DNA from: a virus
Direction: 5' to 3' (one strand)
IMG/VR virus record: IMGVR_UViG_3300037487_001646
Location: 1 to 23,581 of that record
DNA length: 23,581 nt
How positions within the stretch are numbered: the first letter of the stretch is position 1; each line of letters begins with the position of its first letter. Of the stretch, positions 1 to 22,289 are shown piece after piece. The position numbers and the translations under genes were made by a program. A model generated the notes under the pieces. That model searched no databases and had not been told where the DNA came from. It worked only from the letters and a program-made list of their open reading frames with translations.

Positions 1-152
1 TCTGGCTTCGATGAAGCTGACAGCTTCGCTCCCGCTGCTATCTGAACCAGCAGACATGCTCCCGGGCTGGCTTTCCAGTCTGCCAACTGGTCAAAGCCTC
101 CCATTAGTCTGAAAGTGCTTCTGCCGGCCGCTCTGATGGCCGTCTCAAGTCC
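1..152. repeat. terminal direct repeat, left copy (circular junction)
   Basis: These bases match 23429-23581 at every position except one: the right copy has an extra C in the run after CAGCTT (near base 28 here). The overlap is what an assembler leaves at the ends of a circular or terminally redundant molecule, and gives a unit length of about 23,428 bp. The missing base breaks the helicase frame in this copy only, so this copy probably carries a contig-end error. Confidence 0.93.
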
Positions 153-1217
153 GTCTATCTCTGCCCTGAATCTACAGAAGATAACAAAACTTTCGTCCGT
201 CTCTGACAGCAGTTCGAGTATCGCGTCTATCTTTGCGGTATGACACTGCCGTGCTCTGTAATCGTGACCCCAATAGCCAGCCGTAACCTGTGAGAGTCTA
301 AGCTGTAGTGATAGTGCATTTGATACGGTCAGTTCCATGTCTCCGAGCATAGCTACTGATTCGTTCTCCAGTAACCTGTAAGCGTCCAAGACGTGCTTCG
401 GCAGCACAATAGGCACAACACAGTCTGTTATCTCTGGAAGTGCAGCTTCGCATACTGCCGGTTCAACGTGGTACGTGAACGATCCTAGTCTCTTGTTGAA
501 AACGTCCATGTTCTTATATCCTTGTATCTGCTTCGAGAGAAATGTAGGGAACTGCTTTCCGGTCCTAGCGTCTTGGCCTGATGGACCAAACACGCAAAAC
601 TCATCTTTGAAACGCTGCACGCTCGAACCGAACACGTTTGGGTCTATCGCTCTGCCTTGGGCGTAGATGTCTACAGGACCCTGTGACATCGGAGTGCCTG
701 AAAGGGCAATAACACGCTTCGCGTTTCTAGTTAGCAGGGCTGCCTTTCTTGATTGTATTCCCCCGGGTGCTTTCAGCCTGTGGGATTCATCGAATACGAT
801 GATGTCCCACGGCCGCATCTCCAGCAATTTTGCTGAAAGCACAGCGGACGACAGTGCCTCATAGTTCGTAGCTACGACCAATGTAGTCTCCAAGGTGAAC
901 GTCAACGGTCTCGACAGCATTTCTGCTCTGCAAGCACAGGACCCTGTGGAAAGCGGATAGAAAACATACTGGAAGTAGCTGTGTGCATACTTAGCAAACT
1001 CCTGCTCCCATACATTGTTGACCGCTTTCAGCGGGCAGATAATAAGAACCCGCATTCCGCAGGAAAGTCCTGATTTCACCGATTGTATGTAGTCTACGAT
1101 AATCCTACTCTTGCCACCTCCCATTGGAATCCAAAGCAATGAACCACGATGGTGGTGAATCCAAGCAAGAGCGTTAAGCTGATGCTCCCAGAGTGGCGGG
1201 CCAGACGTAGTGATCAT
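1..1217 (-). CDS. SNF2-family DNA helicase/translocase, 5' part (continues across the junction)
   Basis: Superfamily 2 ATPase expected to translocate on or remodel DNA during phage replication. The ATG at 1217 overlaps the stop of the upstream gene (ATGA). Translated across the join to 23581-23216, the protein has 476 residues. Visible motifs are Walker A MGGGKS (residues 32-37), DESH box (143-146) and SGTP motif III (173-176). The C-terminal helicase domain with the QSRKRIWRHGQ motif VI (422-432) lies at the other window end. The last ~26 bases of this copy are out of frame because of the one-base deletion in the terminal repeat; the right-hand copy is in frame. It sits just downstream of a VRR-NUC nuclease gene, a pairing known in phage replication modules. 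SNF2 family is clear from the motifs; the exact biological role is inferred. Confidence 0.93.
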   Translation of the reverse strand, partial: MITTSGPPLWEHQLNALAWIHHHRGSLLWIPMGGGKSRIIVDYIQSVKSGLSCGMRVLIICPLKAVNNVWEQEFAKYAHSYFQYVFYPLSTGSCACRAEMLSRPLTFTLETTLVVATNYEALSSAVLSAKLLEMRPWDIIVFDESHRLKAPGGIQSRKAALLTRNAKRVIALSGTPMSQGPVDIYAQGRAIDPNVFGSSVQRFKDEFCVFGPSGQDARTGKQFPTFLSKQIQGYKNMDVFNKRLGSFTYHVEPAVCEAALPEITDCVVPIVLPKHVLDAYRLLENESVAMLGDMELTVSNALSLQLRLSQVTAGYWGHDYRARQCHTAKIDAILELLSETDESFVIFCRFRAEIDGLETAIRAAGRSTFRLMGGFDQLADWKASPGACLLVQIAAGAKLSASSKP

Positions 1218-1669
1218 GGTTTGGTTTCCGTTCTGATTTCCCAGATGTTCCCGACATTGGACCGTTCTGCTTCCTGCGCTGCAACTGGTGCAGTGGCTAG
1301 TGCCCATGCCAAGAGGTTTTGCACTTCAGACCACCGTGTTTTGACGATAGACAAATTATACTGCACAGTAATCATTTCTTTGGAAATAGTTGACCTCTTG
1401 GATTCCAAAGCCAAGTACTCCGGGTCAATGTCTTGCAGTTCGTAAAGGCAAGCTGTCCTCATATCCACGTTTGAGTATAGAGGCTTCCCAGCTTCGTTCT
1501 TCAACAATGTTGTCTGGAACATTTGTTTGATGTTCCATCTGTCTACAGCAGTCTGTGCTTCTTCAAGTACGATTTTGAGCTCGCCAAGTTCCTTGGTCAT
1601 TACGTGTGAATCTCTGGCGATGTTACTCAGATTCAAGCATTCGTTAGCAAAGCATTCTGATAGTGTCAT
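1214..1669 (-). CDS. hypothetical phage coiled-coil protein, 151 aa
   Basis: Function unknown. The start at 1669 was chosen because it overlaps the stop of the preceding HTH gene (ATGA) and has an AAAGGA ribosome binding site; the longer in-frame extension to 1759 would lie inside that gene. The protein is mostly helical. It has heptad-like stretches around residues 25-45 and 85-115, with a DPEYLALES segment between them. This general look (short helical protein with a DPEY motif before a long helix) is seen in small phage accessory proteins encoded near recombination or helicase genes, but I cannot assign a family. Its stop overlaps the helicase start, so translation of the two is probably coupled. 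Confidence 0.75.
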   Translation of the reverse strand: MTLSECFANECLNLSNIARDSHVMTKELGELKIVLEEAQTAVDRWNIKQMFQTTLLKNEAGKPLYSNVDMRTACLYELQDIDPEYLALESKRSTISKEMITVQYNLSIVKTRWSEVQNLLAWALATAPVAAQEAERSNVGNIWEIRTETKP

Positions 1670-5608: not shown

Positions 5609-5937
5609 TCGTTATTGCAAATGCAAGTAGGCTCGTTGTTTGCGGCAACGAGCGGAAGCCGTGGACGGTGAGTGCCGAAATGAGGCTTTGAAAAATATCG
5701 TCGTCCGAGGTTAGAATAACGACTTTTCGGGGGGTGTTGAGCTTGGAGTATATGAAAAACGCGTTATTGCTCAGGTTGAAATAACCTTTTTGGGGGCGGT
5801 GGTTTTGGGAGCCCGCCGGAGGCGGGCGTTTAATATATAGGACCTTTTTTTTGTCGTTTCGATTTATAATAACGATTGAGCTTGAGCATCTCGTTATTCT
5901 AACTCAAGCAACGATGACCTAAAATCACCTCGTTATT
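5609..5937. repeat. six CGTTATT repeats (iteron- or operator-like)
   Basis: The 7-mer CGTTATT occurs forward at 5609-5616, 5761-5768, 5891-5898 and 5930-5937, and reversed at 5715-5722 and 5868-5875 (8-base spans; five are TCGTTATT and one is GCGTTATT). The copies at 5715 and 5891 share the longer TCGTTATTCTAAC. Two copies (5868 and 5891) face each other. Confidence 0.65.
5811..5830. terminator. short GC-rich hairpin followed by GTTTAATAT
   Basis: Perfect 7-bp stem GCCCGCC / GGCGGGC with a GGA loop (5811-5827), followed by G and three T. It resembles a weak intrinsic terminator on the plus strand and lies among the CGTTATT repeats. Confidence 0.35.
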
Positions 5938-6090
5938 GTATTTTATGAGGGGAAATGGCAGTAAAAAGTGTCAAGAGGTAAAAAAAGTTGTTATTTCAAA
6001 TCGGAACGACAAAATTTTCCCTCTATATATATAAGCGTTGCTGACCGCTTGTGCATTCCTGACTTTCTGGCTCTCTTTCAGTCAAGAACA

Positions 6091-6192
6091 AGAGGCTTCG
6101 TGGGTGGGCGGGTGGGACGTACGCAGGTCGGTGTCTCGCGCAGCGTGTATACGACAATTTCCTTAGCCATTGACCCCTTCTTCCACGCAGAG
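6091..6192. repeat. ~102-base direct repeat carrying a G-quadruplex motif, copy A
   Basis: Nearly identical to 6327-6429; only a handful of differences. It begins AGAGGCTTCG, contains the G4 motif, then GTACGCAGGTCGGTGTCTCG, a GTGTATAC segment, and ends GCAGAG. The first ~30 bases recur again at 7556 and 8094-8128. Confidence 0.88.
6102..6116 (+). other. G-quadruplex motif 1
   Basis: Four GGG runs separated by single bases T, C, T. Single-base loops give the most stable parallel quadruplex class. Confidence 0.85.
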
Positions 6193-6312: not shown

Positions 6313-6326
6313 GGTCGGCTATGCGC

Positions 6327-6429
6327 AGAGGCTCCGTGGGTGGGCGGGTGGGATTGTACGCAGGTCGGTGTCTCGCGCAGCGTGTATACGACAATTTCCT
6401 TAGCCATTGACCCCTTCTTCCAGGCAGAG
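6327..6429. repeat. ~103-base direct repeat carrying a G-quadruplex motif, copy B
   Basis: Second copy of 6091-6192. It ends in GCAGAG exactly at the left edge of the IS element. Confidence 0.88.
6338..6352 (+). other. G-quadruplex motif 2
   Basis: Same 15-base core as motif 1 (GGG runs with T, C, T loops). Confidence 0.85.
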
Positions 6430-7329
6430 TGGCCTGTACCCGTTTGTACGGGTACTTTGTTGCGCGGCTTTCACGACAGTCTGTAACTCGAACTGTGCTG
6501 GTGCCAAATATCCCAACGTCGAGTGCAGCCTGACCCTATTATAGAACACTTCGATGTATTCGAAGATGTCCCTTCTTGCCTCGATTCTGTTTCGATATAT
6601 TCGGTGATGAACTCGCTCGGTTTTGAGAGTCGAGAAGAAGCTCTCAGCTACCGCATTGTCCCAACAATTGCCCTTGCGGCTCATTGAGCATAGCATATTA
6701 TGCAGATTAAGAGCCGCCCGATAGTCATTGCTTGCGTATTGGCTGCCACGGTCCGAATGATGGATCAATCCTGGCCCAGGATTCCGTCGGCCAACAGCCA
6801 TAGATAAAGCGTCCATTACCAGACCACGATCAATCCGTTCACTCATCGACCAGCCCACCACCATACGCGAGTGCAGGTCAATTACTGCGGCCAGATACAG
6901 CCAACCCTCCATTGTCCAGATATAGGTGATATCAGAAACCCACACCTTGTTTGGTCCCGCAGAAAAGAACTCCCGAGCTAGCAGATTCTCAGCCACAGAA
7001 AAACTGTGCTTAGAATCTGTCGTTATTCGATACTTACGCTTACGTTTGGCCTTAATGCCACACTTGCGCATCAGACGCGCCACCCTGTTGAGCGAGCAAC
7101 TCTCACCATCAGCAAGCAATTGGCGATGAATCCGCCGGACACCGTAGGTCCCACCTGCTGCCTCATAAATACATTTGACCTCGTCGATGATGCGGGCATC
7201 GTCAATTTCACGATTACTGGGCCCGCGTCCCGACCAGGCATAGTAGCCACTCGGTGATACATTCAACACACGACAGGCGCTCTCCACATGAAACTCATTA
7301 CAATGATCTTGCACGAAGCCGTATCTCAC
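6400..7329 (-). CDS. IS3-family transposase OrfB (DDE catalytic subunit), 309 aa
   Basis: Catalytic half of an IS3-family transposase, which cuts and rejoins DNA using a DDE triad in an RNase H fold. Visible: N-terminal HTH_21-like region (CRVLNVSPSGYYAW and GTYGVRRIHRQL), first Asp in WVSDITYI, second Asp in HHSDRGSQY, Glu in WDNAVAESFFSTLK, then the usual YNRVRLHSTLGYLAP end. It starts at GTG 7329, overlapping the OrfA stop. A -1 frameshift at the A7G run (7358-7365, minus strand) would fuse OrfA to OrfB, as is normal in this family. Odd: the stop codon lies outside the element, and the last 9 residues are read from the neighbouring phage DNA. Confidence 0.95.
   Translation of the reverse strand: MRYGFVQDHCNEFHVESACRVLNVSPSGYYAWSGRGPSNREIDDARIIDEVKCIYEAAGGTYGVRRIHRQLLADGESCSLNRVARLMRKCGIKAKRKRKYRITTDSKHSFSVAENLLAREFFSAGPNKVWVSDITYIWTMEGWLYLAAVIDLHSRMVVGWSMSERIDRGLVMDALSMAVGRRNPGPGLIHHSDRGSQYASNDYRAALNLHNMLCSMSRKGNCWDNAVAESFFSTLKTERVHHRIYRNRIEARRDIFEYIEVFYNRVRLHSTLGYLAPAQFELQTVVKAAQQSTRTNGYRPLCLEEGVNG
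6430..6462 (+). repeat. IS terminal inverted repeat, left
   Basis: Pairs with 7523-7555; about 25 of 33 positions match, including CCTGTACCCGTTT. Confidence 0.88.
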
Positions 7330-7523
7330 TTCGATTCCTTCGCAAAGAACGCCGTTGCTTTTTTTAGAATGTTACGCTCCTCGCGCAGAACTCTGTTCTC
7401 ACGACGCAGCCGGATCAGTTCTTCGTGCTCATCAGGCGTAAGCGATGTGCCATGGGAGTTTGTCCCAAACTTCTTTATCCAATCATACACAACACTATCG
7501 CTTATACCCAGATCCCTAGCCAC
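7326..7523 (-). pseudogene. IS3-family OrfA, 5'-truncated
   Basis: Remnant of the DNA-binding subunit. The reading frame begins in the middle of the helix-turn-helix (VARDLGISDSVVYDWIKKFG) and continues through the leucine-zipper-like region (LIRLRRENRVLREERNILKK). IS3 OrfA proteins are normally about 90-100 residues and start with a helix before this point. Here the inner edge of the right inverted repeat joins directly to the HTH codons, so roughly the first 30-35 codons and the usual leader are gone. The A7G slippery run (7358-7365) is intact. I infer that the element can no longer make a normal OrfA or OrfAB, although initiation at GTG 7523 cannot be excluded. Confidence 0.82.
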
Positions 7524-7555
7524 AACAAAGTCTCCATGGAAACGGGTACAGGTCA
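7523..7555 (-). repeat. IS terminal inverted repeat, right
   Basis: Inverted match of 6430-6462. Its inner end abuts the truncated orfA. Confidence 0.88.
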
Positions 7556-7565
7556 GAGGCTCCGT

Positions 7566-7580
7566 GGGTGGGCGGGCGGG
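7566..7580 (+). other. G-quadruplex motif 3
   Basis: Four GGG runs with loops T, C, C, immediately right of the IS, in a third partial copy of the repeat. Confidence 0.85.
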
Positions 7581-8113
7581 ATTGTGCCCGGCTCCTGACG
7601 TGTCCTGCGTTTCATATCGTTTTTGCCACCCAGTCTCTTTGCCTTGCCGTCTCTGCTATCACTTTGGTGTGACTAGACGTTGCTGTCTCAGAATCGCATC
7701 CTACGCGGTCATTGAGCGTGGATGATTGTACATCTTCGCAAGTTGCGCAGCAACGAGGCGAAACACTGGTCGTATTTCGTTAAACCTTGGTGTATCGCGC
7801 AGCGTGAATAAGAAAAGCTGGAGCAGAGCGGAAGTCTCCGCATATCATGGGAGGGGCAAGGCGGCATCCTGAGCGAGGAACGAGGCGAAGGGCCGACGGG
7901 GCCGGGGGTAGGGGGGCTGGCCAGCGGAGGAATCGGAGCGGGGAGGCCCCCCGTATTCGCGCGGTGCATCAGCAAAGGGCAATAACAAAGCTATATCGCG
8001 CGCCTTTCGGCGAAGAAGCCCAGCCCGACGGGCGCACAACCGACGAAGGAGGGAAGCCCAGCGGGCAGGGCGACTGAGCCGCCAGTCTTGCGGTCAAGAA
8101 CAAGAGGCTTCGT

Positions 8114-8128
8114 GGGTGGGTGGGTGGG
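8114..8128 (+). other. G-quadruplex motif 4
   Basis: Four GGG runs with T loops. The 20 bases to its left match those left of motif 1 (GTCAAGAACAAGAGGCTTCG). Confidence 0.85.
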
Positions 8129-8208
8129 AAGCACAAAAGTGAGAAGTCTAGTCCAGGACAAACCAAGCCAACAAGTCTAGTCGTCAACAAACAAAGGCTT
8201 GGACCCAA

Positions 8209-8262
8209 GGGCTGCTGGCTGCCCTGCGCGCCGCTCTCCGCGCGCAGGGCAGCCAGCAGCCC
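8209..8262. repeat. perfect GC-rich hairpin 1 with CGCTCTCC loop
   Basis: The arms 8209-8231 and 8240-8262 are perfectly complementary over 23 bp, beginning GGGCTGCTGG and ending CCAGCAGCCC, with an 8-base loop CGCTCTCC. CCAAGGGCTGC precedes the loop on the 5' side, as in hairpin 2. Confidence 0.92.
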
Positions 8263-8346
8263 GAAGGGCGTCAACACCAACTACCAAACAATACCACAAC
8301 GCCCACAAACAACAGTGGGAACAACGAATAGGAGCCAACCAACCAA

Positions 8347-8401
8347 GGGCTGCGGTGCTGCCCCCCGCCCCGCTCTCCGGCGGGGGGCAGCACCGCAGCC
8401 C
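8347..8401. repeat. perfect GC-rich hairpin 2 with the same loop
   Basis: The arms 8347-8369 and 8379-8401 are perfectly complementary over 23 bp, beginning GGGCTGCGGT and ending ACCGCAGCCC. The loop region reads CCGCTCTCC, and both hairpins share CCGCTCTCCG. Stem sequence differs from hairpin 1 in its inner two-thirds, always with both arms changed together. Confidence 0.92.
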
Positions 8402-9028
8402 GCCGGTCTAGTAGCAGCTTGGTCGCCGAAAAACGGGCTTGGTCAACAGTAACAGGCTTGCTGTCTAAAAATAACAGGCTTGCTTCAGATGGCAAGGGAG
8501 GCCGAATCTAACATTGCCCTGCAATAGAAACTCACTGCCGACCGCGCAGTTATCAGTCGAACATCAGCCAAAGCGCTTCGTCTTTCTACGTGCCCACCTG
8601 TTTGCAAACCACGCTGTACACCAGCGGAGTTGCGTAGCAACGGAGCTGTCTGCCGTCTTTCGGTCTAGTACACACACAGGCACGAACGCCTTTGGGCAAG
8701 CAAGTGGTTGTTGCCAGTGAGTGCCGGTCGCTGCCGCGTCATTGCTGTCTGTCTAGTGAATATGTTTGTTTGTTCATTGTTTGTTCATTGTTTGTTCATT
8801 GTTTATTCTTGTTGTTTGTTCTGGTTCTTTGTTCTTGATTGTTGTTGTTGTTGTTATATGTTTGTTTGTTCTTTGTTTGTTCTTTGTTTGTTAATCTTTT
8901 ATTCTTTTGTTTGTTTGTTTGTTGTTGTTAATTTGTTTGTTTCTTTTCTTCTTGTTCCGTGTTTTGTTCTCTCTTTTTTTTTTCCCCTTTATGCCGCCCC
9001 GAGAATTATTGCCATTTCGTTTTGAAAG
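8402..9028. other. gene-free leader region upstream of the late operon
   Basis: No credible gene. The open frame at 8708-9025 encodes only Cys/Phe/Leu/Val-rich sequence because the DNA is a TTTG/TTG repeat. Strand composition switches from AC-rich (about 8150-8345) to GT-rich (about 8755-8965). The heptamer GTCTAGT recurs at 8406, 8663 and 8751 here, and at 8146 and 8175 just upstream. No clear sigma70 promoter was found in front of the terminase genes. Confidence 0.6.
8755..8990. repeat. GT-rich low-complexity tract with tandem 11-mers
   Basis: GTTTGTTCATT is repeated three times exactly (8768-8800), and GTTTGTTCTTT 2.6 times (8864-8892). The rest is irregular TTTG/TTG/TGTT. The tract ends about 40 bases before the small terminase gene. 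Confidence 0.85.
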
Positions 9029-9580
9029 TTGTATGATGTTGTCGTTATGCGCAGGTCAAAGGATTTGGTTTCTCCGATTTTCAAGCGTGCTGAAACTGAG
9101 GTCCGTATGTGGGATGCTCGGATGAAGGATATGTCTGACGTTGAGATATCTGATTTGGTTGGCTTGAGTGTTGGTGTTGTTCGCAGTTCTCTGGCTTCTA
9201 TGCTGCGTCGTATTTCTTCTGAGGGCAATTTAATTGCTCGTAGTTGGGCTGTCCGTGAGACTGTTTTGTTATTTCAGGACATTTACTCACCTGCTGAGGT
9301 TCTGTGGCGTGAGTCTGGTGATCCTCGTTATGCTGAGTTGATGCGTGGTGCATTGTCTGACATTCGCAAGATTTGGGGTGTTGATGCGCCCCAGCGTGTG
9401 CAGACATTGAGTGTTCACGTTGGAGTTATGGACAGTGAGTTGGGGAGGTTAAGTGTCGATGAGCTTAGAATGCTCCGTGGAATGTTCCCGGGTGATTCCG
9501 GCGGGTGTGACGGCGGAGTCGATCCGTCTGGCTCTGGCTTACCGGAGCTTCCCGGATTATTGTCGGTTAGTAACCCCTGA
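9029..9580 (+). CDS. terS: putative terminase small subunit, 183 aa
   Basis: Proposed DNA-recognition subunit of the packaging motor, placed by position directly before the large subunit. An HTH-like segment, DVEISDLVGLSVGVVRSSLA (residues ~37-56), fits the DNA-binding domain of small terminases; the middle is helical and the C-terminus is Gly/Pro/Ser-rich. The start is uncertain: TTG 9029 or ATG 9047, neither with a good ribosome site, which is unusual in this genome. It overlaps the large-subunit gene by more than 100 bases in another frame. Codon use is T/G-rich, continuing the upstream composition. No sequence-level family match is claimed; the call rests on HTH and position. Confidence 0.65.
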   Translation: MYDVVVMRRSKDLVSPIFKRAETEVRMWDARMKDMSDVEISDLVGLSVGVVRSSLASMLRRISSEGNLIARSWAVRETVLLFQDIYSPAEVLWRESGDPRYAELMRGALSDIRKIWGVDAPQRVQTLSVHVGVMDSELGRLSVDELRMLRGMFPGDSGGCDGGVDPSGSGLPELPGLLSVSNP

Positions 9581-10976
9581 CTGGGTAGATGCTCCTCACT
9601 TGGATTATTTGTGCAGTCGTGCGGAGTTGGTTGCGTCTCGTGATATTCGTCGTTTGATTATCAACATTCCCCCTGGTTACGCTAAGTCTTGGATTTTCTC
9701 CCGTTGTTTTTCTTCTTGGTATTTGATGCGTTATCCTGCTCGTGAGTTTATGCTTTTGAGTTACGGTGATGATTTGGCTATTGAGCACAGTTCCGCTGCT
9801 CGGTCGATGTTTAGTATTTTTTCGCCTCTGATTACTGGTGCTGGTATGTCTCGCGATAGCAAAAGCGTAAGCCGTTGGATGGTTGACGTGGGTTCTGGCG
9901 GTCGCGGCGGTGGTATGATGGCTTGTGGGATTGGTTCTTCTGTCACTGGCCGCCGTGCTGATGTGATTGTGGTAGATGACCCGTTCAAGAACTGGGAAGA
10001 GGCTAATTCCGAGGTGGCTCGGGAAAAGGTTTGGGATGCTTACCGGTCTGTGATTCGGAGTCGTTTGCGTCCAAAGGGTTGTATTGTTGTTATCCAGACG
10101 CGCTGGCACAAGGATGACTTGACTGGCCGTTTGTTAGATCACGAGGGTGGTATGAAGTGGGAACACGTAAAGTTACCGGCTCGTGCTTTGGAGAATGATT
10201 TGTTAGGCCGTGATATTGGAACGCCATTATGGCCTGAAATGTATGACGATGCTGAGTTGACTGAGGTTGAGGGTGATATTGGTCCTGTTTTCTGGGCTTG
10301 CGAGTTCCAGCAGGAGCCAGAGGAGCCAAAGGGTCGGTTTTTCAAGTCTGACTGGTTCCGTTATTTTCACACTGACGGCGATTACTTTGTTCTGGGTGCT
10401 GATGTCGGTGACATTCGTTACCACAAAGATGAGTGTGTGATTGTGCAGACGATTGACCCGGCTTCGACTGAGGAGTCTCGGAATGACTTTTTCTGTCAGT
10501 GTGCCTGGGTTTTGTGTCCGTCTGGTGAGATTGGTCTGCTGGCGGTCCAGCGTGAGCATATAGCAACGACTGAGCATATAGATGACATCATATCATTCAA
10601 CGAGAAGTATAGTGCAGCTTGGATTTGCGTAAGCAAGCGGGCTGCTGGGTTGAATCTGTTCCAGCAGTTGGATGATATGGGTTTTGCTCTGGAGGAGATT
10701 GTCGAGGATGTGTCCAAGTTATCACGATCTTTGGTTATCATGCGTAAGTATCGTCGCGGTGAGGTGTATCATTTACGTGATGCTCCGTGGATTTTCGCCA
10801 TTGAATCGGAGTTGAAGTCATTTCCGGGCGGCAAGAATGATGACTTTGTTGACAATGCTTCTGCGATAGGTATACAATCGTCGCAGATAGGCTTATGTGG
10901 TTCTGAGGCGGTCGAAGCATTCGGACAGAGCAGAAAGGGCAGTAGTTATGGGCTGGAATCTGTTTTCATTCGGTAA
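9453..10976 (+). CDS. terL: terminase large subunit (packaging ATPase/nuclease), 507 aa
   Basis: Motor that pumps DNA into the prohead and cuts concatemers. Visible: Walker A PPGYAKS (residues 73-79), Walker B VIVVDDP (171-177), motif III/coupling QTRWHKDD (215-222), and nuclease-domain acidic residues in LGADVGD (D317) and near GGKNDDFVDNAS in the C-terminus, the last being the usual third metal ligand region. Length is typical. The start is GTG 9453 or ATG 9459, after GGGGAGG; the deep overlap with the previous gene is odd but the sequence before Walker A looks genuine. It overlaps the portal gene by 29 bases. Confidence 0.95.
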   Translation: MSMSLECSVECSRVIPAGVTAESIRLALAYRSFPDYCRLVTPDWVDAPHLDYLCSRAELVASRDIRRLIINIPPGYAKSWIFSRCFSSWYLMRYPAREFMLLSYGDDLAIEHSSAARSMFSIFSPLITGAGMSRDSKSVSRWMVDVGSGGRGGGMMACGIGSSVTGRRADVIVVDDPFKNWEEANSEVAREKVWDAYRSVIRSRLRPKGCIVVIQTRWHKDDLTGRLLDHEGGMKWEHVKLPARALENDLLGRDIGTPLWPEMYDDAELTEVEGDIGPVFWACEFQQEPEEPKGRFFKSDWFRYFHTDGDYFVLGADVGDIRYHKDECVIVQTIDPASTEESRNDFFCQCAWVLCPSGEIGLLAVQREHIATTEHIDDIISFNEKYSAAWICVSKRAAGLNLFQQLDDMGFALEEIVEDVSKLSRSLVIMRKYRRGEVYHLRDAPWIFAIESELKSFPGGKNDDFVDNASAIGIQSSQIGLCGSEAVEAFGQSRKGSSYGLESVFIR

Positions 10977-12216
10977 TAGGCTTCCCCGTGAGGATGTTGG
11001 CAGGGATGTAAGTGTTGGCGGTAGTTTATCTGGTTATCAGAATCCTGATGACTTGATTGGCGCAAAGGGTATCGAGGTTTATGACACGATGAGCAGGAAC
11101 GCTCAAGTGTCTGCTTGTCTGTCTATAAAGCGGGCTTCCGTGTTATCCCGTGGTTGGGATGTGGGTGTTGGCGAGAAGTCCAATGGTGTTCGCGAAGAGG
11201 TTGTTGAGTTCTGCAAGTATGTATTCGAGTGGATGGACGGCAGTTTGTTTGGTGTGCTTGAGAATGTCTGTGATGCTCTGGCGAAGGGTTATTCCATACA
11301 GTCTCTTGTATGGGATAACATAGAATCCGGTAAGTTCAAGGGCAATGTTGCCCCCCGCTACATTTATGCAAAGGACCCTGCTGATTGGCAGTTCATCGTA
11401 GATGACTACCGGCACGTCACGGGTTTGCTTCACACTCCGACGAGTGAACGCTTCTCCCGCTCTGGTTTCGTCGTTTTCACTTACCGCGGGATTTACGGGA
11501 ATCCTTACGGGTATTCTGACCTTAGGAATTGTTACCGTAACTGGTGGAGCGTGGATTTTCTGGAGCGGTTCTGGAATATGTATATGGAGAAGTTTGGCGC
11601 ACCAACGGTCAAGGGAACGTATAAGCGGGGCTTATCTGCCGCTGCGAAAGCCACCTTTATGTCTGCGCTGTCTGCTGTGCAATCTAAGTCTGCTCTGGTT
11701 TTCCCCGAAGATATGAAAGTGGAATTGTTGGAAACAATTCGGCAGGGTGAATCTGGATTCCGTCTTGCTACGGAATATCACAACAAGCAGATAGCCAAGT
11801 CTATTCTCAACCAGACTTTGGTGACTGATTCCGGCGGTGGAGTCGGTTCTTTTGCTATGGCGAAGGTGCATTTGGATGTGCTTCGGATGTGTTTGCGTGG
11901 CTTGAAGCAGGATTTGGAAGAAACTGTTGTCAGGGAACAGATTCTTCGCCCTTTGGTCGCTGCAAACTACGGAGCAGATGAGCCGGTCCCGATATTCACT
12001 CTCGGACCATTGGAAGATCGCGAAATCGAACCGCTGTCTCGGGCTGCTGGCAATATTGTCACGGCTGGGATTCTTGACCCTGCTGATCCGTGGTTCCGCG
12101 AGTTCCTTGGAATCTCTGGTGGAGGAAAGTCTCCAGCGAAGCCGGAGGCTGGTCCGACCGTAACTAGGACAAGGGTTGATGGCAATACCAACGATGCAAG
12201 TGTAAAGGTGGGTTGA
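10948..12216 (+). CDS. DUF935 (Mu gp29-like) portal protein, 422 aa
   Basis: Forms the dodecameric ring through which DNA enters and leaves the capsid. The segment around YDTMSRNAQVSACLSIKRAS and the following GWDV, the FGNPYGYSDLR-like region (IYGNPYGYSDLRNCYRNWW) and the KFGAPTVKGTY stretch are characteristic of the Mu gp29/DUF935 family. ATG 10948 is preferred over the longer GTG/ATG reading from 10897 because AAAGGG lies about 8 bases upstream. The C-terminal ~30 residues are Pro/Thr/Lys-rich and probably disordered. Family members are usually 420-520 residues, so this is a compact but complete copy. Confidence 0.92.
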   Translation: MGWNLFSFGNRLPREDVGRDVSVGGSLSGYQNPDDLIGAKGIEVYDTMSRNAQVSACLSIKRASVLSRGWDVGVGEKSNGVREEVVEFCKYVFEWMDGSLFGVLENVCDALAKGYSIQSLVWDNIESGKFKGNVAPRYIYAKDPADWQFIVDDYRHVTGLLHTPTSERFSRSGFVVFTYRGIYGNPYGYSDLRNCYRNWWSVDFLERFWNMYMEKFGAPTVKGTYKRGLSAAAKATFMSALSAVQSKSALVFPEDMKVELLETIRQGESGFRLATEYHNKQIAKSILNQTLVTDSGGGVGSFAMAKVHLDVLRMCLRGLKQDLEETVVREQILRPLVAANYGADEPVPIFTLGPLEDREIEPLSRAAGNIVTAGILDPADPWFREFLGISGGGKSPAKPEAGPTVTRTRVDGNTNDASVKVG

Positions 12217-12217
12217 T

Positions 12218-13012
12218 ATGCCGACAAGTATAACGCACGAAGATATAAAGCCAAGGATGTGTATTCCGCTGGCCACCACCACGTATGACACCGAGCTTGA
12301 TACAATTTGCACTGGTGTCGGGGCGGGTGTTGACGGTGCTGCTGGCACTGCTCCTGCTGCTTTGCTCAAGGAAGCTGCCATAATGATTGCTGCAGGCACT
12401 GCTTGGATTGGTATGGCGAATCGTCCCGGCTATGCTGAGTCTTTTGTCGCTGTCGGTGTAACGGTCGGCGGGATGAACAAAGATGGGGCTATTGACCTTG
12501 TAAAGACTGGCTGGCAGATATTGCTCCCGTATTGTGGGCAGAAGGTGGCTGCTGAGGCTGCCGAGGCAGCTTTTGCCGCTGCTCTGGCTGCTGCCCGTGA
12601 TGATGATGTCGCTGCACAGGCTGACGCTGAGTTGCTCAAGCTGCAGAATGAGGCTGGTGAGTCCGGTTCCCGCAAGCTGCTTTTGGATTCACAGGAGTTG
12701 AAAACTGACGCAGAGAAGCTGCTTGTGGATGCTCAGACTGCGATTGCTGTCTCTGAGGAGTTGAGAATTGATGCTCTGACAGCTTTGCTGGTCAAAGAGG
12801 CACTGACCGAAGTAGAAAAGGCTCTTGGTGTCGTTGCGTCAGCTGCTTTGTCTACAGCTTTGAGTCTGGAGTCTGCGCAGCGGACCGCTGCAAAGACTAT
12901 AGAGGTTACTCGTCTAACGAGGGCAGAAACACTGGTGGACGATTCCGCAGAGTGTGATTCTACCACTGATGACTATTTGTTTACTATGACTTCCGGGGAG
13001 TATACGAGATGA
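12218..13012 (+). CDS. possible head-tail connector (adaptor) protein with long Ala-rich helical domain, 264 aa
   Basis: Placed right after the portal, the usual place for the first connector (adaptor) protein. The N-terminal ~100 residues (ITHEDIKPRM..., YDTELDTICTG..., LLKEAAIMIAA) fit the helical pattern of gp6/gp15-like adaptors. Residues ~110-240 are extremely rich in Ala, Glu, Leu and Asp, with repeated AEAA, KLLLDSQELKTDAEKLLVDA and related motifs: a long coiled coil or helical bundle not found in normal adaptors, which are about 100-120 residues. The ribosome site is AAGGTGGG. It ends in an ATGA overlap with the next gene. The adaptor call is inferred; a scaffold-like or fibre role for the long helical part is possible. 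Confidence 0.6.
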   Translation: MPTSITHEDIKPRMCIPLATTTYDTELDTICTGVGAGVDGAAGTAPAALLKEAAIMIAAGTAWIGMANRPGYAESFVAVGVTVGGMNKDGAIDLVKTGWQILLPYCGQKVAAEAAEAAFAAALAAARDDDVAAQADAELLKLQNEAGESGSRKLLLDSQELKTDAEKLLVDAQTAIAVSEELRIDALTALLVKEALTEVEKALGVVASAALSTALSLESAQRTAAKTIEVTRLTRAETLVDDSAECDSTTDDYLFTMTSGEYTR

Positions 13013-13338
13013 GTCTACTCACTGACCGTTTTGATGCTGGCATTGACAGGCTTGGTGAGAGCATAACTTGGACAAAGTTGAACGGTTCCGCTGGTAGTTT
13101 TGCTCATAACTGCATAGTTCGTCCGGCTGAATCCGGTTTGCTGAATACGTTTTTTGATATCATAGAGTTGTCTGCGTTTGGTCGTCCGGTAGTGATTGTA
13201 ATAGTTAAGGCTGCTGTGACTGCAAAGGCTGCTGATACATTTACCCGCGATTCCGTGGCTTGGAGATGTGAGCGGGTGTTTACTCTGCGATTAAGTAACG
13301 AGGCTATTGGAAAGTATGTTCTGATGAGTCAGGTGTAA
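13009..13338 (+). CDS. possible head-completion/stopper protein, 109 aa
   Basis: Follows the adaptor candidate, where tailed phages place the head-closure (stopper) protein. It begins MSLLTDRFDAGIDRLGESITWTKL and continues with alternating beta strands (RPVVIVIVKA, WRCERVFTLRLS), matching the length and general beta-barrel pattern of stopper or head-tail joining proteins, which often start with a short helix then an ITWT-like strand. Overlap ATGA with the upstream gene and GGGGAG ribosome site. The family is not firmly recognised; position and fold pattern are the evidence. Confidence 0.6.
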   Translation: MSLLTDRFDAGIDRLGESITWTKLNGSAGSFAHNCIVRPAESGLLNTFFDIIELSAFGRPVVIVIVKAAVTAKAADTFTRDSVAWRCERVFTLRLSNEAIGKYVLMSQV

Positions 13339-13339
13339 T

Positions 13340-13837
13340 ATGAGAAAACTGTCTAATGGTTTAGAATACAAAGAGAAAGACACTCCGAACATAAGTATTC
13401 GTAAGTCTCGTCCTTCTGTTGTCGTTCTGCACCATACCGGCGGTCTCGGTCTAGGTAACGTGGCGTGGCTGTGCAGTCCGCACAGCAAAGTATCTGCCGA
13501 TTGGTATATTTCACGGGCTGGGTCTATCTGGAAGCTGAATCCTCAGATAGCAACGTATTATACTTGGCACTGCGGAGTCAGTAAGTTCCTCACTTACAAG
13601 GATGTCAATCCTGTAAGTATCGGCATTGAGCTTGAGCATGTGCCAGGGCAGGATTGGCCTGAAAGCCAGATCAAGGCTTGCCATTTGGTTTGTGAGTTTA
13701 TGATGACTAGGTTTTCCAAGATCACTATTGACCGTATCGTCGGCCACAAAGATATTGCTCTGCCTGTGGGCAGGAAGAATGACCCCGAAGGTTTTCCGTG
13801 GGTATTATTTCGCAAACTGTTCACAGGAGGTGATTGA
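13340..13837 (+). CDS. N-acetylmuramoyl-L-alanine amidase endolysin, 165 aa
   Basis: Zinc amidase of the T7-lysozyme/AmpD (Amidase_2) type that cuts the bond between muramic acid and the peptide of peptidoglycan, freeing progeny phage. Zinc ligands are visible: H31 or H32 in VVLHHTGG, H136 in IVGHKDIA and D148 in GRKNDPEGFPW. SIGIELEH (residues 93-100) supplies the conserved Glu strand. No signal peptide and no separate cell-wall-binding domain, so it needs a holin for export; a holin-like gene follows immediately. Unusually, it sits inside the head gene cluster between connector and protease genes. Confidence 0.94.
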   Translation: MRKLSNGLEYKEKDTPNISIRKSRPSVVVLHHTGGLGLGNVAWLCSPHSKVSADWYISRAGSIWKLNPQIATYYTWHCGVSKFLTYKDVNPVSIGIELEHVPGQDWPESQIKACHLVCEFMMTRFSKITIDRIVGHKDIALPVGRKNDPEGFPWVLFRKLFTGGD

Positions 13838-14077
13838 GTGCATGATTATGAAACAGTGGTCATTGCAGCATTGGGCGGGTTTCTGGGGATGGCTACGGCG
13901 CTTGGTTATGGGTTCAAGACACTCGTGGATGTCGTGTCGAAGCAGTTAGCTGTGCAGAATGATAGTATAAAGACAATCCAGCACGGGATGGCTGCTGACT
14001 TAAAAAAGCACATTGATGACTGCTCCCATTGCAGAAACAGAATTGATAGGTGGGAAAATGATCGAACGAGAAGCTAA
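13838..14077 (+). CDS. putative holin-like single-span membrane protein, 79 aa
   Basis: GTG start directly after the amidase stop, with an almost consensus AGGAGGTGAT ribosome site. One transmembrane helix near the N-terminus (residues ~7-26, rich in Ala, Gly and Leu), then a hydrophilic coiled-coil tail with a DCSHC motif (C62, C65) and a charged end. Size, topology and pairing with the endolysin suggest the holin or a related lysis membrane protein; the CxxC is unusual for a holin. It overlaps the protease gene by 20 bases. Confidence 0.62.
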   Translation: MHDYETVVIAALGGFLGMATALGYGFKTLVDVVSKQLAVQNDSIKTIQHGMAADLKKHIDDCSHCRNRIDRWENDRTRS

Positions 14078-14939
14078 GTTGTTCGAGGCTGGAGATTATC
14101 CAGATAGAGATATTACATTCACTGGAGCCGATCTTGATGCGGTTATAGCTGGATTCAAGGTAGGGCAGAAGATTCCAATAAAAATTGGACATTCTGATAC
14201 GCCGTTTGACGGCCTACTGGGTCAAGTGACTAGGCTGTGGAGGGTTGGCTCTAGTCTGATGGGAACGCTATCTTTTCCGGAACATGTATGGGATTTTCTG
14301 GAAAAGATGAACACCAAGAAGTTGTCGGTTGGTTTTGACAGGCTTTCTAGGAGAATCAAGGAGGTCTCCATAGTATCTCATCCGCGCATATTGACAGCTC
14401 GGGTATTTAGTGATACAGTTTCAGGGAACGTAGTGTTCGAGGATAAGTGGGATGATGTCAGAGGAGGTGCTAAGTTGAACGAGTTCAGTGCAGAAGTAGT
14501 TACACTTATGAAAGCGGAGCGTGAAGCTGGTCGCGCTGAGGGTCAGGCTGCTGCCGAGACGCAGTTCGAGGCAAGAGTATCTTCAATCGCGAGAGAGAAC
14601 GCTGAAATGAAGCGTCTTTCGGCATTAGACGAGGCAGACAAGAAGATACTCGGCTGGAAAGCTGAGGGTAAACTCACTCCGGCTGCTGAGAAGTATGCTC
14701 AGGCTATTCTTGTGGACGGTAACGCCGAAGTTACGTTCTCTGATGGCGGGCATATGAAAGTGAGTGAGTCGTTCGTGCAGTTCATGCTTCACCAGAGCGC
14801 AATGCTCAATATGGTCAAGGGAACGCCGGAAGTTCCAGCAGACACCACGAGCGAAATCGACAAGCAGGTCTACGCTCTGCTCGGAGTTACTCCTGAGCAG
14901 GTGGCTGAAGCCGACAAAGAAATCAAAGACGCGAAGTAA
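14058..14939 (+). CDS. prohead protease with C-terminal scaffold-like region (Mu gpI-like), 293 aa
   Basis: Capsid maturation protease fused to scaffold. The N-terminal domain (~1-140) shows the pattern of phage head proteases: FEAGDYPDRDITFTGADLDA, IPIKIGHSDTPFDG with the likely catalytic His, KKLSVGFDRL with the likely Ser, and KEVSIVSHPRILTARVF. Residues ~160-293 are helical and charged (AEREAGRAEGQAAAETQFEA onward), as expected for an internal scaffold; Mu makes its scaffold from the same gene. ATG 14058 with AGGTGGG is preferred over the longer reading frame from 14013, which overlaps the holin-like gene. Lies just before the capsid genes. Confidence 0.85.
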   Translation: MIEREAKLFEAGDYPDRDITFTGADLDAVIAGFKVGQKIPIKIGHSDTPFDGLLGQVTRLWRVGSSLMGTLSFPEHVWDFLEKMNTKKLSVGFDRLSRRIKEVSIVSHPRILTARVFSDTVSGNVVFEDKWDDVRGGAKLNEFSAEVVTLMKAEREAGRAEGQAAAETQFEARVSSIARENAEMKRLSALDEADKKILGWKAEGKLTPAAEKYAQAILVDGNAEVTFSDGGHMKVSESFVQFMLHQSAMLNMVKGTPEVPADTTSEIDKQVYALLGVTPEQVAEADKEIKDAK

Positions 14940-14954
14940 AGGAGGAACAGACAA

Positions 14955-15476
14955 ATGGCGTATGGAGCTTCTGGGCAAGCATGGGATTGCAAACGGAGCG
15001 AGTCGGATTTGATTTCATATCCGATGGGCGTTGTAAAGATATGGAAAGGTAGCCTGTGTATGATAAACGCCGCAGGGTTCGTTGTTCCAATGACGGACAC
15101 AGCAACCGGCGATTATTTTGCAGGTGTGTCGCAGGAGACTGTTGACAACCGGTATACAGTCATGGGCGATTCAAGCAGTGCTGCTGCTACGGCCGGAGAC
15201 AGGAGTTGCAACCTTTGGCAAACTGGTGTGTTTGAGTTCAAACACGCTGGGGCTGCTCGTACCGATGTTGGGCTTCCCGCGTTCTGGTCTGGTGCTGTGG
15301 CTGATGCACAACAGACTGTTGAGTCTGCAACCACTGCTGCCACTCACGACTTCATGGTCGGGCAGATTGTTTGGGTGTCGGCTGAAACCGCAGCAACCAG
15401 AGTGAGAATCAAGATAGATGGGTATGCCAGCTATGGCGCACCTGAAGCGTCTGTCATTGGTGGACTTTCAACGTAA
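14955..15476 (+). CDS. putative capsid decoration/head protein (DUF2190-like), 173 aa
   Basis: Small beta-rich protein between protease and major capsid protein, the usual place for head decoration (cement) proteins. The start has AAAGGAGG 8 bases upstream. The segment GVVKIWKGSLCMINAAGFVVPMTD, then GDYFAGVSQETVDN and later GQIVWVSAE, resembles the DUF2190 type, in which strands surround K-G-x-x-V and D-x-x-x-G-x-x-x motifs. Ala/Thr-rich with few charged residues. Function by position and general pattern; a fold prediction would settle it. Confidence 0.62.
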   Translation: MAYGASGQAWDCKRSESDLISYPMGVVKIWKGSLCMINAAGFVVPMTDTATGDYFAGVSQETVDNRYTVMGDSSSAAATAGDRSCNLWQTGVFEFKHAGAARTDVGLPAFWSGAVADAQQTVESATTAATHDFMVGQIVWVSAETAATRVRIKIDGYASYGAPEASVIGGLST

Positions 15477-15502
15477 GAAAATAGAGAAAGGGGGATGAAG
15501 AA

Positions 15503-16444: not shown

Positions 16445-16454
16445 TCCAAAGCAT

Positions 16455-16485
16455 ACACACCCGCTAGAAATAGCGGGTGTGTTTA
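16455..16485 (+). terminator. hairpin with GAAA loop after the capsid gene
   Basis: Perfect 12-bp stem ACACACCCGCTA / TAGCGGGTGTGT with a GAAA tetraloop, followed by TTT. Probably a partial terminator or RNA-stability element between the capsid and next genes. Confidence 0.6.
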
Positions 16486-18175: not shown

Positions 18176-19768
18176 TCACACCATACAGGCTGATGACGTA
18201 GCTGGCCGGAGGATAATCACTCCTTTCTTCGCCCGTGTCAGAGCAACATACATTAGTCTGCGTATGTTGTCTCTGCCGGAGCCATTCCATTCATAGAAAC
18301 CTTGCGGTGAAAGGTCGGGGATGACGATCACTACATCGGATTCCCCGCCTTTGACGCTGTGAATTGTTCCAATAATCACATCCGGTGGAATCTGGGAAGC
18401 ATCTAGAAACGCAGTTCCTAGGTTATTCACGATTGTGATTGCATACTTTGCTTTCCGTCTGGCTTCGTCGTTTACCAGATGGGCTTCGTACCATACTAGG
18501 TCGCAAGCCATAAGTCTGTTTACAGCTTCTTCAGTGAAGTATTCAAACATCATATCAAGGCTCACTGAAGAAATGTCGTCTAGTTTGTTCTTCATTCCCT
18601 TCCGGAATACTCCATCTGCTTTCAGCACACTGGTAGCAGCTTTTAGTTGGTCTGCAGACCACATAGGTTTCACCGAGTCCAGCGGAGCAAGGAACGATGA
18701 TACTCGTTCCGCGTATGTAGTCCCTGCCGTTAGCTTCAGTGGATTCCAGTCACCTCTTATTAGCCTGTATGGGTTATGGAACGGGATTCCCGCGTTCCTG
18801 AGCGCGTGTTTGGCAGTCTCTACCATATACGAGCAAGAGCCTATGACCATACTGGAGAGTCCTTTGTCCAGGACGGTTTGTATGGTCTGCACAATTTGGT
18901 CGCCGTCCATAAACGAGCATGGAGCGTGAGTAACAAACCCGGGGTCGTCGGAATGCTTCGGCATATAATCCTTTGGCACTCTGGTTCTCACTTTAGCTAT
19001 CCAGCTGGACGCAAACTCCCACGGGTTGTAAGGAACCCTGTATGACTGTTCAAGCACAGTATCGTTGCTTGGTATGCTCTTATCCGCGAATGCTTCTGGT
19101 GCTGCCCCAGCGAACTGATAGATACACTGGTCGTCATCACCCGATAGCACGAGCCGTTTTGCCTGTAAAGCCCATTTACGAATCACAGCCAGTTGTAAGG
19201 CTGTGCAATCCTGAGCTTCATCAACGATTATTGTCTGCGGTCTGCCCGGAGCGCACTGGTCTGAAGCCAGTGCATCTTCGAGCATATCGGTGAAGTCGAT
19301 TCCACCGGCAGACCGTTTCCATCTTCTCCACGCTTCGTAGAATCTGGCTGCGTTCTTGGGCCATAATTCTATCGGAGTTAGTTTGTTCCGTAGGATTGTG
19401 GTGGCAGCGTGTAGCCTGTCACCGTTTGTTATGTCGTTAGACATTTCCATCACTGAGTCAGTGGTCCTCACTGACGGAGCGGAGAGTCTGTATTCTGGAG
19501 CGTAAGCGTTCCACTCCATTACTGATGATGATTTTGATTCCAGTATCGGCGGTGTCCCCATCGCCGAGTAACATGCTTTGTGCAGTGTCCCGACATTCTC
19601 TGTCTGGATAGACGTGCACCTGCTGGCTATTTCTTCCGCTGCTGCATTGGTGTATGAGCAGATCATAACACTTCCCCCACCGTCTTGAGCTGCAACGGTA
19701 GTTGCTATTCTTGTCAGGTTTGTAGTCTTGCCTGTTCCCGGCGGTCCGAAGATTCTTTCTTCTGTCAT
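18176..19768 (-). CDS. UvrD/PcrA-type superfamily 1 DNA helicase, 530 aa
   Basis: 3'-5' DNA helicase of the UvrD/Rep class. Motifs in order: Walker A GPPGTGKT (8-15), motif Ia SYTNAAAEEI (~38-47), DFTDML, Walker B IIVDEAQD (180-187), motif III GDDDQCIYQFAGA (210-222), motif IV region YRVP, motif V TIHSVKGGE (468-476) and motif VI RRLMYVALTRAKK (507-519). Slightly short for UvrD (about 600-730), mainly in accessory domains 1B/2B. ATG 19768 is preferred over the TTG at 19819 because it directly precedes the Walker motif as usual. Last gene of the early operon; probably works with the primase and SNF2 protein in replication. Confidence 0.94.
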   Translation of the reverse strand: MTEERIFGPPGTGKTTNLTRIATTVAAQDGGGSVMICSYTNAAAEEIASRCTSIQTENVGTLHKACYSAMGTPPILESKSSSVMEWNAYAPEYRLSAPSVRTTDSVMEMSNDITNGDRLHAATTILRNKLTPIELWPKNAARFYEAWRRWKRSAGGIDFTDMLEDALASDQCAPGRPQTIIVDEAQDCTALQLAVIRKWALQAKRLVLSGDDDQCIYQFAGAAPEAFADKSIPSNDTVLEQSYRVPYNPWEFASSWIAKVRTRVPKDYMPKHSDDPGFVTHAPCSFMDGDQIVQTIQTVLDKGLSSMVIGSCSYMVETAKHALRNAGIPFHNPYRLIRGDWNPLKLTAGTTYAERVSSFLAPLDSVKPMWSADQLKAATSVLKADGVFRKGMKNKLDDISSVSLDMMFEYFTEEAVNRLMACDLVWYEAHLVNDEARRKAKYAITIVNNLGTAFLDASQIPPDVIIGTIHSVKGGESDVVIVIPDLSPQGFYEWNGSGRDNIRRLMYVALTRAKKGVIILRPATSSACMV

Positions 19769-20396: not shown

Positions 20397-20722
20397 CTTG
20401 TGTTCCTGCTTTCTACCGTCGCGGTTTGAATTGGTTCGGGTGTTGGGCAAATTGCTCTATTCCCTTTGGCTTTGACTATAGCCCATTCAATCAGCAGTCC
20501 AGCAATGCTGTCGGGAATGTGCAGGGAGCAGGATGCGTAAACCTGAGTCTGTAACGCTGCTATCGCAAGCTGCCGTCTTTTGGTGTTGGTCGTCTTGCTT
20601 CCTGAAGCTGCCTTGTCAATGGCAGCTACTACGGAGGACCACCCACCGATAAGCTGTAGCCATTTCCAGACACAAGCAGGGAGACTTAGAAACTTGACTA
20701 GGTTGAGTATAAAGTTAATCAT
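20393..20722 (-). CDS. LL-H-type holin-like protein, 109 aa
   Basis: ATG 20722 overlaps the primase stop by 8 bases. A hydrophobic N-terminus (MINFILNLVKFLSLPACVWK) is followed by a helical region whose pattern (AAIDKAASGSK..KRRQLAIAALQ, then a short linker and IPDSIAGLLIEWAIVKAKG) resembles the C-terminal part of LL-H-family holins, where K-x-x-A-x-x-x-L precedes I-D-x-x-I-x-x-L-I-E-x-A-V. If so, a second membrane-lysis-type gene sits in the early rather than late operon. The resemblance is a pattern, not a confirmed family match; a membrane-linked replication accessory is the alternative. Confidence 0.6.
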   Translation of the reverse strand: MINFILNLVKFLSLPACVWKWLQLIGGWSSVVAAIDKAASGSKTTNTKRRQLAIAALQTQVYASCSLHIPDSIAGLLIEWAIVKAKGNRAICPTPEPIQTATVESRNTR

Positions 20723-22289
20723 TTGATTTGAACTCCTTTGGTAGCTTCCATACGTTCGTCTTGTCTGGCAAGGTAATAGGTTCCGCGCCTACGGCACGGA
20801 GCGAAAGCCCAAGGCTTCGCGCAGTAACTCGGTCGCCGAAGTGGACCGAAACCCACTGCCGAAGTGTCGGAGCAGATAGAAAGATGTTCTGCCCGTCTGT
20901 CCACGGTGAGCCAGAAGATATGCCATCTTCTGCGAAACCTGCCGTAGGCAGGTGAGTGATGTATGCTCTAAGCCAGTTCGTTATCTGCCCAACGGTCGTC
21001 GTCTCTCCCCCCGCTGATTCTTTTCTGACGAACCCTAAGAGTAATCTGACGCAGACTTCATAGTGGTCAGTCTTTAGCTTCGGTATCAGGATTCCGATAG
21101 TAGCTGCAATCTTGTTCCTGCACATCGTTTGTGATGTCAGGTATTCAATGCTTCCCAGTGGAACACACAAACCAGATTTAAGGACCAGCGAGAACGCTGG
21201 TTCTTCGGAGTCGAACCGTATCAGTTCGAGTATCGAGACACTCAAGTGTTGAGATACGTATAGCATAGCCGTTTCTTTCGAGGCGAAAGCCGATTCGCTT
21301 GCTGGCCGGTCCGGTGACTGGGATTCGAACTTGGCTTTGGAAACAGTGGCTTCATAGTATGAGGCTGCTTTCTGGGGCAACGAGTGCTTCCGTCTGAATT
21401 GCTTGAGAACCGATTGCGTGGCTTCTATAGAGAATCCTGCTCGGATGCAGTATTGGGCAAGGCTCATATCATAGGCTGATGGCGATTGGTCGCGGAGCTT
21501 TGGGTTCCGATTGTTCCAAGTCGCCATTATGTCGTTGTTGGTTTCAAGCAGGAATTGCAGTTCTTCTGTTGGGAACTCCTGCACAGGTATTACCACATCG
21601 TCTGTGTCTTTTGTCGGAATCGGGTTCGCAAAGACTGGAACTCTCACTCTCACTGGAGTTGCCTGTGCAAACACCGATAAGTTGTAACGTAGCATAGAAT
21701 CTAAGAATCTTAGTTCGACTGGAACTGGCGCCGAAACTATTTTGTGGTTAGTCGTTCCTGGCAGTCTCATCACCCGCGATAAGTCGCATACTGAATCCGC
21801 GTCAAAGCCGGTGGATGCACAGTAGGCTCTCCACTTATCGGAGAATCCAATGAGCATATCGGATATCATTTCCCTGTTGCTGTCTGTTACGGAAGTCCAC
21901 TGCGTAAGCAGATACCACATCTGAAACCCGTGGCCTGAATGCACAATGGCAGAAGGCTTGAGCGCAGGGAAAGCATCTTCTGCCATAGCTATCGCTTGGG
22001 CTTCACTAGCCGGAAGCCGGTCTTTCTTGTGGGCATCACTGGCGATGTCTATGTCAAGCCAGAATGCTCCAATACCAGATACGTGACTGCTCCCGCCTCT
22101 CTTTGTCGCTCCCAGATGGAGTGAGCTTGGCCGCGTCCCGCAGCCAAAGTAAGTGTCACGTTTGTATAACGAAGCGTCGATAGTATCACTGACATTGAAC
22201 CACGAGGAAGTCTTTGTTGCTGACTGCCATATAAGTATAGAGTCGTCTGAAGCCTTGCCTCGAAACACTGCATCCACTAGTGCGTTCAT
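20715..22289 (-). CDS. archaeo-eukaryotic-type primase / primase-polymerase, 524 aa
   Basis: Initiates DNA synthesis by making primers. The N-terminal AEP domain is visible: FWLDIDIA with catalytic Asp79 and Asp81, SGHGFQMWYLL (118-128) containing the conserved His, and DLSRVMRLPGTTNHK (169-183), the third-Asp/R-x-P-G-T-x-N-x-K signature. The ~200-300 linker is Pro/Val-rich; the C-terminal part (~300-524) has helical modules of the PriCT kind plus a winged-helix-like end but no Walker motif, so helicase activity must come from other genes. ATG 22289 after GGGGGAGG is preferred to TTG 22304. It is preceded by the hairpin 22316-22347 and the SSB-like gene. Confidence 0.88.
   Translation of the reverse strand: MNALVDAVFRGKASDDSILIWQSATKTSSWFNVSDTIDASLYKRDTYFGCGTRPSSLHLGATKRGGSSHVSGIGAFWLDIDIASDAHKKDRLPASEAQAIAMAEDAFPALKPSAIVHSGHGFQMWYLLTQWTSVTDSNREMISDMLIGFSDKWRAYCASTGFDADSVCDLSRVMRLPGTTNHKIVSAPVPVELRFLDSMLRYNLSVFAQATPVRVRVPVFANPIPTKDTDDVVIPVQEFPTEELQFLLETNNDIMATWNNRNPKLRDQSPSAYDMSLAQYCIRAGFSIEATQSVLKQFRRKHSLPQKAASYYEATVSKAKFESQSPDRPASESAFASKETAMLYVSQHLSVSILELIRFDSEEPAFSLVLKSGLCVPLGSIEYLTSQTMCRNKIAATIGILIPKLKTDHYEVCVRLLLGFVRKESAGGETTTVGQITNWLRAYITHLPTAGFAEDGISSGSPWTDGQNIFLSAPTLRQWVSVHFGDRVTARSLGLSLRAVGAEPITLPDKTNVWKLPKEFKSND

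Follow-up and report, generated by a model that had tools for sequence, protein, structure and literature searches.

Paired perfect hairpins in the control region of a small uncultured phage: candidate elements of a replication origin

Two described systems stand closest to the hairpins reported here. RepB' of RSF1010 touches the ssiA hairpin at its 5' single-stranded tail and at its first G-C pair (PMC4434180). Replication of pRN1 depends on a stem-loop, and among the relatives of pRN1 its structure is kept whereas its sequence is kept poorly; a similar stem-loop has been noted in phage BIP-1 (PMC4234260). The present locus resembles RSF1010 ssiA/ssiB in having two non-coding hairpins, an encoded AEP/RepB-type primase and repeats nearby. 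Similar to pRN1 and BIP-1, which use an AEP-SF3 replication protein, it combines a long stem-loop and an AEP primase (PMC4234260); structure kept better than sequence is seen here with a single relative.

The window, i.e. the whole stretch of DNA analysed, is the complete IMG/VR record IMGVR_UViG_3300037487_001646 of 23,581 nt. Bases 23429-23581 repeat bases 1-152 with one indel, giving an end overlap of about 153 bp; the record, although labelled 'linear', can therefore be joined into a circle of about 23.4 kb. It is apparently the complete genome of a small uncultured phage. The late genes run rightward from 9047 (terS position, terL, portal, endolysin, protease, major head protein), and replication-type genes for a UvrD-like helicase, an AEP-like primase and an SNF2-like helicase run leftward. 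The two groups diverge from a non-coding region that contains both hairpins, along with G-rich repeats, a transposase of IS3 type and a T-rich tract (Table 1). The DNA of 7400-9400 showed no similarity to known phages. The IS3-family transposase (6400-7600) is inserted in the control region, with likely ends near 6433 and 7551 as judged by eye. The late region 9047-18107 encodes terminase, portal, protease, head, endolysin and LamG-type proteins, and in PHROGs nothing in it convincingly matched a tail or tape-measure family; the virus might lack a tail, have a short one or be a capsid-forming satellite. The sole match of the gene at the terS position is a weak one to phrog_645, whose label, RNase E, is probably an error.

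Table 1. Features of the hairpin region, of selected genes and of the relative's hairpins. Positions are those of the window unless the relative is named.
Feature	Position	Strand	Remarks
Hairpin 1, perfect 23-bp stem, 8-nt loop CGCTCTCC	8209..8262	+	arms 8209-8231/8240-8262, 100% complementary
Hairpin 2, perfect 23-bp stem, 9-nt loop CCGCTCTCC	8347..8401	+	arms 8347-8369/8379-8401, 100% complementary
5' flank CCAA of hairpin 1	8205..8208	+	identical four bases precede hairpin 2; CAAA before the relative's matching hairpin
5' flank CCAA of hairpin 2	8343..8346	+	
Unit GGGCTGC-TG-GCTGCCC, left arm of hairpin 1	8209..8224	+	mirrored at 8247-8262
Unit GGGCTGC-GGT-GCTGCCC, left arm of hairpin 2	8347..8363	+	mirrored at 8385-8401
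A/C-rich spacer between the hairpins	8263..8342	+	45% A, 31% C, 6% T
Five AATAACGA sites	5609-, 5715+, 5868+, 5891-, 5930- (5609..5937)	both	iteron- or operator-like; in the relative too
Element with G-quadruplex-type run GGGTGGGTGGGTGGG (8114-8128)	8086..8134	+	related copies at 6074-6122, 6326-6366, 7554-7594
Two CAGGCTTGCT copies	8453, 8475 (8453..8484)	+	CAGGCTTGCTGT also in the relative's hairpin region
T-rich repeat tract, TTGTTTGTTCA-type repeats	8750..8990	+	66% T
Sigma-70-like promoter TTGCCA-17-TATGAT (predicted)	9009..9037	+	alignable block; TTGACC-18-TATACT before the relative's terS
Gene at terS position	9047..9580	+	49% identical to the relative's gene; weak phrog_645 match
Terminase large subunit	9453..10976	+	phrog_38, E 7e-90
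UvrD-like helicase	18176..19768	-	PF00580, E 1e-20
AEP/RepB-like primase	20715..22289	-	phrog_2478, E 2e-13, and motif columns
SNF2-type helicase, split by the record ends	3..1307	-	remainder 23216-23581
Hairpins of the relative (G001 positions)	24371-24416, 306-354, 438-478, 634-691, 846-901, 983-1030		

An earlier note on this DNA had described two perfect 23-bp hairpins 138 bases apart with a common entry sequence, and both points were confirmed: the starts are separated by 138 bases and the hairpins themselves by 84 nt, and CCAAGGGCTGC occurs in the window at 8205 and 8343 only. Alignment of the two stems with gaps revealed 17 kept, five substituted and two unmatched pairs. Both hairpins are in one orientation, with the common loop on the + strand. 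They are predicted to fold with about -59 and -60 kcal/mol, and they are the most stable 90-nt stretches in the window (z about -6.5). The longest perfect stem was at most 11 bp in 300 first-order Markov shuffles of 7601-9046, and 17 bp in 1.18 Mb of other phage DNA. The hairpins are thus far beyond chance. A coding explanation was ruled out, since the hairpin-crossing open reading frames have codon-usage scores below zero and the four scanned gave no PHROG match; the hairpins are non-coding. An assembly duplicate, which had been considered for the second hairpin, was judged unlikely, as the two internal hairpins have different stems and an independent contig also has hairpins. A protelomerase site and an integron attC site were also weighed and dropped: the loops lack symmetry, and inspection by eye showed no attC-type core.

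The independent contig is IMG/VR contig 3300009285_005074 (24,914 bp; loci G001, L098, L101 and L102), the only near-full-length close relative recovered in searches with TerL, portal, major capsid protein and primase. Its gene order is the same, with identities of 69-70% for TerL, 67% for portal, 68-69% for the major head protein and 45-47% for primase. Besides it, the searches yielded a TerL fragment (L083) and a portal relative with 39% identity (L100), and the TerL relatives found in a scan of genome contigs were all distant. Comparable hairpins were absent from more distant TerL relatives: two such records, read completely or almost completely, contained no stems scoring 13 or more, and the other distant TerL loci one 14-bp stem only. 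No close cultured relative was found, and no phage record searched closely represents the lineage. A 39-bp stretch of the window (7682-7720) is 90% identical to G001 13464-13502; it is non-coding in the window, and in the relative it falls at the start of the UvrD-like helicase gene, on the opposite strand. No further viral contig contains its 31-bp core. The relative also has repeated GTTCACAnATnGTGAAC-type palindromes, operator-like by eye, in its early region and between its hairpins (L101 480-545; L102 3090 and 3840).

The corresponding divergent non-coding region of the relative contains at least six hairpins. The largest, 634-691, extends by a 7-bp outer stem to 626-698 (24 + 7 bp). Two others, 846-901 and 983-1030, form a twin pair with a common apical part of 6 bp, a bulge, 4 bp and a 7-nt loop; they also have a TT/TT internal loop in common, and their basal stems differ. 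Both phages thus have twin hairpins in which the core is common and the stems differ, although the core is not the same in the two phages. The motif AAGGGCNGC-n2-6-GCNGCCC is present in both window hairpins and in the relative's largest and one small hairpin, and is absent elsewhere in both genomes. A regular-expression search for GGGCNGC-n(1-8)-GCNGCCC found only the arms of the two hairpins in the window, and only those of 626-698 plus the small hairpin 931-946 in the relative. The pattern equals its reverse complement, so that both arms of a hairpin count as one, and the independent sites number two per genome. Shuffles gave an expectation of 0.01-0.05 per genome, which overstates the strength of a pattern composed after the hairpins had been viewed; other phage loci gave 14 occurrences in 1.19 Mb.

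On the + strand, AA precedes all four unit sites. The middle base of each block co-varies with its partner (T-A, C-G, A-T), and the differences between the genomes are compensated (GGGCTGC/GCAGCCC against GGGCCGC/GCGGCCC; GCTGCCC against GCAGCCC). The loops of the window hairpins and of the relative's matching hairpin differ. It is therefore the stem base and the second stem block that persist between the phages, not the loop. The earlier note had proposed a conserved loop with free stems, which is the reverse of what the two genomes have in common. The loop core CCGCTCTCCG is indeed identical within the window, where it occurs at 8231 and 8370 only, but it is not found in the matching hairpin. 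The pairing, by contrast, is kept in the one comparable relative; at 626-698 structure is kept and sequence has diverged with compensated differences, in a sample of one relative that is too few to generalise from. Since the relative has hairpins with the same unit at the corresponding place, the hairpins are probably a real control element.

The compensation within the window carries less weight. It is true that every stem difference is compensated, but this follows automatically from both stems being perfect and does not by itself prove selection, because one template-switch event can rewrite both arms, creating perfect stems and multi-base compensations at once (PMC8794818). The hairpins might on this ground be template-switch palindromes kept perfect without a dedicated function of the pairing, in which case the two in the window would represent an old duplication or a small mobile palindrome. 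The identical loop and outer stem of the pair would fit such an origin, as would the repeat-rich surroundings with other duplications and the IS3-type element. However, the unit is common to phages only about 45-70% identical in their proteins and is confined to the corresponding region, where the relative holds several unrelated hairpins too; moreover, such stems are absent from the 1.18 Mb of other phage DNA. Scans of viral contigs also argue against such palindromes: the pattern GGGCTGC...CCGCTCTCCG matched at least 80 stretches, with the window hairpin in none among the matches listed, and the stricter AAGGGCTGC...CCGCTCTCCG matched 10 stretches, none with the hairpin. We therefore consider this explanation unlikely.

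Another possibility is that the hairpins act as RNA, as a small structured transcript, as a tandem insulator or terminator against late-operon read-through, or as an antitermination leader similar to HK022 put. They are very stable when folded as RNA from either strand, and the spacer between them is A/C-rich. In the relative, the hairpin 846-901, AAACCGC...GCGGTTTT, has terminator-like ends, and the internal TT/TT loops and bulge common to the twins are frequent in structured RNAs. Rfam, however, gave zero families at the gathering threshold in the window, and a permissive search of regions gave sub-threshold matches only, mostly to generic microRNA-type hairpins. Intrinsic terminators are likewise GC-rich stem-loops between transcription units, but the window hairpins have no U-tract and are not among the terminator-like sites; their stems are about twice the usual length for intrinsic terminators. 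The put element of HK022 also comprises two hairpins in a phage control region, but its two stem-loops are imperfect, take up about 70 nt in all and follow early promoters, differing from the perfect 23-bp stems in sequence, position and size (PMC9378689).

A leader function for the terminase genes is also argued against by the sequence between. The hairpins had been placed just upstream of these genes; they are upstream of terS-terL, but about 650 bp away, and a conserved promoter-like block lies between. The predicted promoter ends 10 bases ahead of the terS start codon. As sigma-70-like sites in the window are no commoner than in shuffles, the case for this promoter rests on position and conservation. 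With such a block in between, the hairpins probably do not serve as a leader of terS; if the promoter is used, the late operon would start downstream of them. Taken with the points above, an action as RNA seems to us doubtful, though a possible alternative.

Lying near the terminase genes, the hairpins could also belong to a packaging site (a pac or cos region) to which the small terminase binds. The hairpin region adjoins terS-terL in both phages, and packaging sites can be non-coding, as with the intergenic pac of cp32 (PMC11008901). The 153-bp closure of the window lies outside the region, however, and gives no hint of fixed ends at the hairpins. The contig of the relative does end within its hairpin region, but beside a run of 16 G, which may be an assembly stop. 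None of the described pac elements compared is a pair of 23-bp hairpins, and a packaging role appears improbable.

Our preferred, still tentative, explanation is that the hairpins are cis-acting DNA elements in a large non-coding control region and form part of a replication origin. An origin hairpin had been among the options of the earlier note, and we infer that the region is such an origin, with the mechanism outlined below. An origin with priming sites is favoured because the conserved side of the hairpins is the 5' flank and stem base, the phage encodes an AEP-like primase, and AATAACGA repeats are present, lying left of the hairpins in both phages. The observations behind it are real non-coding hairpins, their unit in the same region of the relative, an AEP-type primase and helicases in both phages, and the promoter-like block. 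The two genomes cannot separate the origin reading from its rivals. Four copies of a AGAGGCTYCGTGGGTGGGYGGGYGGGA element with G-quadruplex-type runs (listed in Table 1 under GGGTGGGTGGGTGGG) also occur in the region.

The N-terminal part of the primase matches phage primase/polymerase families. It aligns with RepB_primase-domain proteins, the columns D, SGxG and R..R.P...N being invariant. PF16793 was detected in three of the seven aligned members, at best with 5e-4, and is below threshold in the window copy. Both phages thus encode a primase that is AEP/RepB-like by profiles and motifs, together with UvrD- and SNF2-like helicases. PDB profile searches with the primase gave no convincing match, its AlphaFold model was too poor for use (pLDDT 45.5), and no SF3 domain was found.

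Similar to RSF1010, an AEP/RepB-type primase is encoded on the same replicon as the hairpins (phrog_2478, E 2e-13; PF16793 not in the window copy), and the side conserved here, the 5' flank and stem base, is the side contacted there by RepB' (PMC4434180). There are clear differences, however. The stems are 23 bp compared with the 21-nt hairpin of ssiA, the primase gene is far from the hairpins, and no RepC or RepA homologue was identified. RSF1010 has one ssi site per strand in opposite orientation, whereas the window hairpins have the same orientation. The GTG start motif found about 4 nt 3' of the ssiA hairpin is absent from the window 3' flanks, which read GAAGGGCG and GCCGGTCT on the + strand and TTGGGTCC and TTGGTTGG on the - strand. 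The stem-loop of pRN1 and BIP-1 comes after the replication gene, and primase and SF3 helicase are fused in one protein. The present hairpins lie at a distance from the primase gene, number two or more and have short loops, and no stem scoring 13 or more was found directly 3' of the primase gene near 20.7 kb. The window hairpins are therefore not filed as members of the RSF1010 ssi or the pRN1/BIP-1 type, but may work like them. Their distance from the primase gene, single orientation, long stems and missing GTG motif, together with the single comparable relative, speak against an origin, a reading to which we give less than an even chance.

We propose the following course of events. Initiator proteins would act at the repeat-rich region with the AATAACGA sites, and the phage helicases would open the duplex. 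The exposed single strands would then fold into the GC-rich hairpins. The AEP/RepB-like primase would recognise the 5' flank and stem base (CAA/GGGCNGC) and prime beside the hairpins, as RepB' does at ssiA and ssiB of RSF1010. The fuller claim, that a lineage of dsDNA phages has a hairpin-type origin in which paired GGGCNGC-n-GCNGCCC hairpins with free linkers and loops are single-strand priming sites of an AEP primase, is possible, although we rate it as rather unlikely.

The case warns that compensated stems are not proof of selection. The unit motif and the compensated changes define clear mutants, of the loop, the stem base and the linker, which would be informative for the RNA and packaging explanations too. 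If the fuller claim is true, phages would have an equivalent of the RSF1010 ssi mechanism, with an architecture of its own. As primase sites, they would provide a compact origin for a lineage without a close representative among the phage records searched, and small dsDNA phages would join the users of AEP priming directed by hairpins, so far known from a few plasmids and proposed for a single phage.
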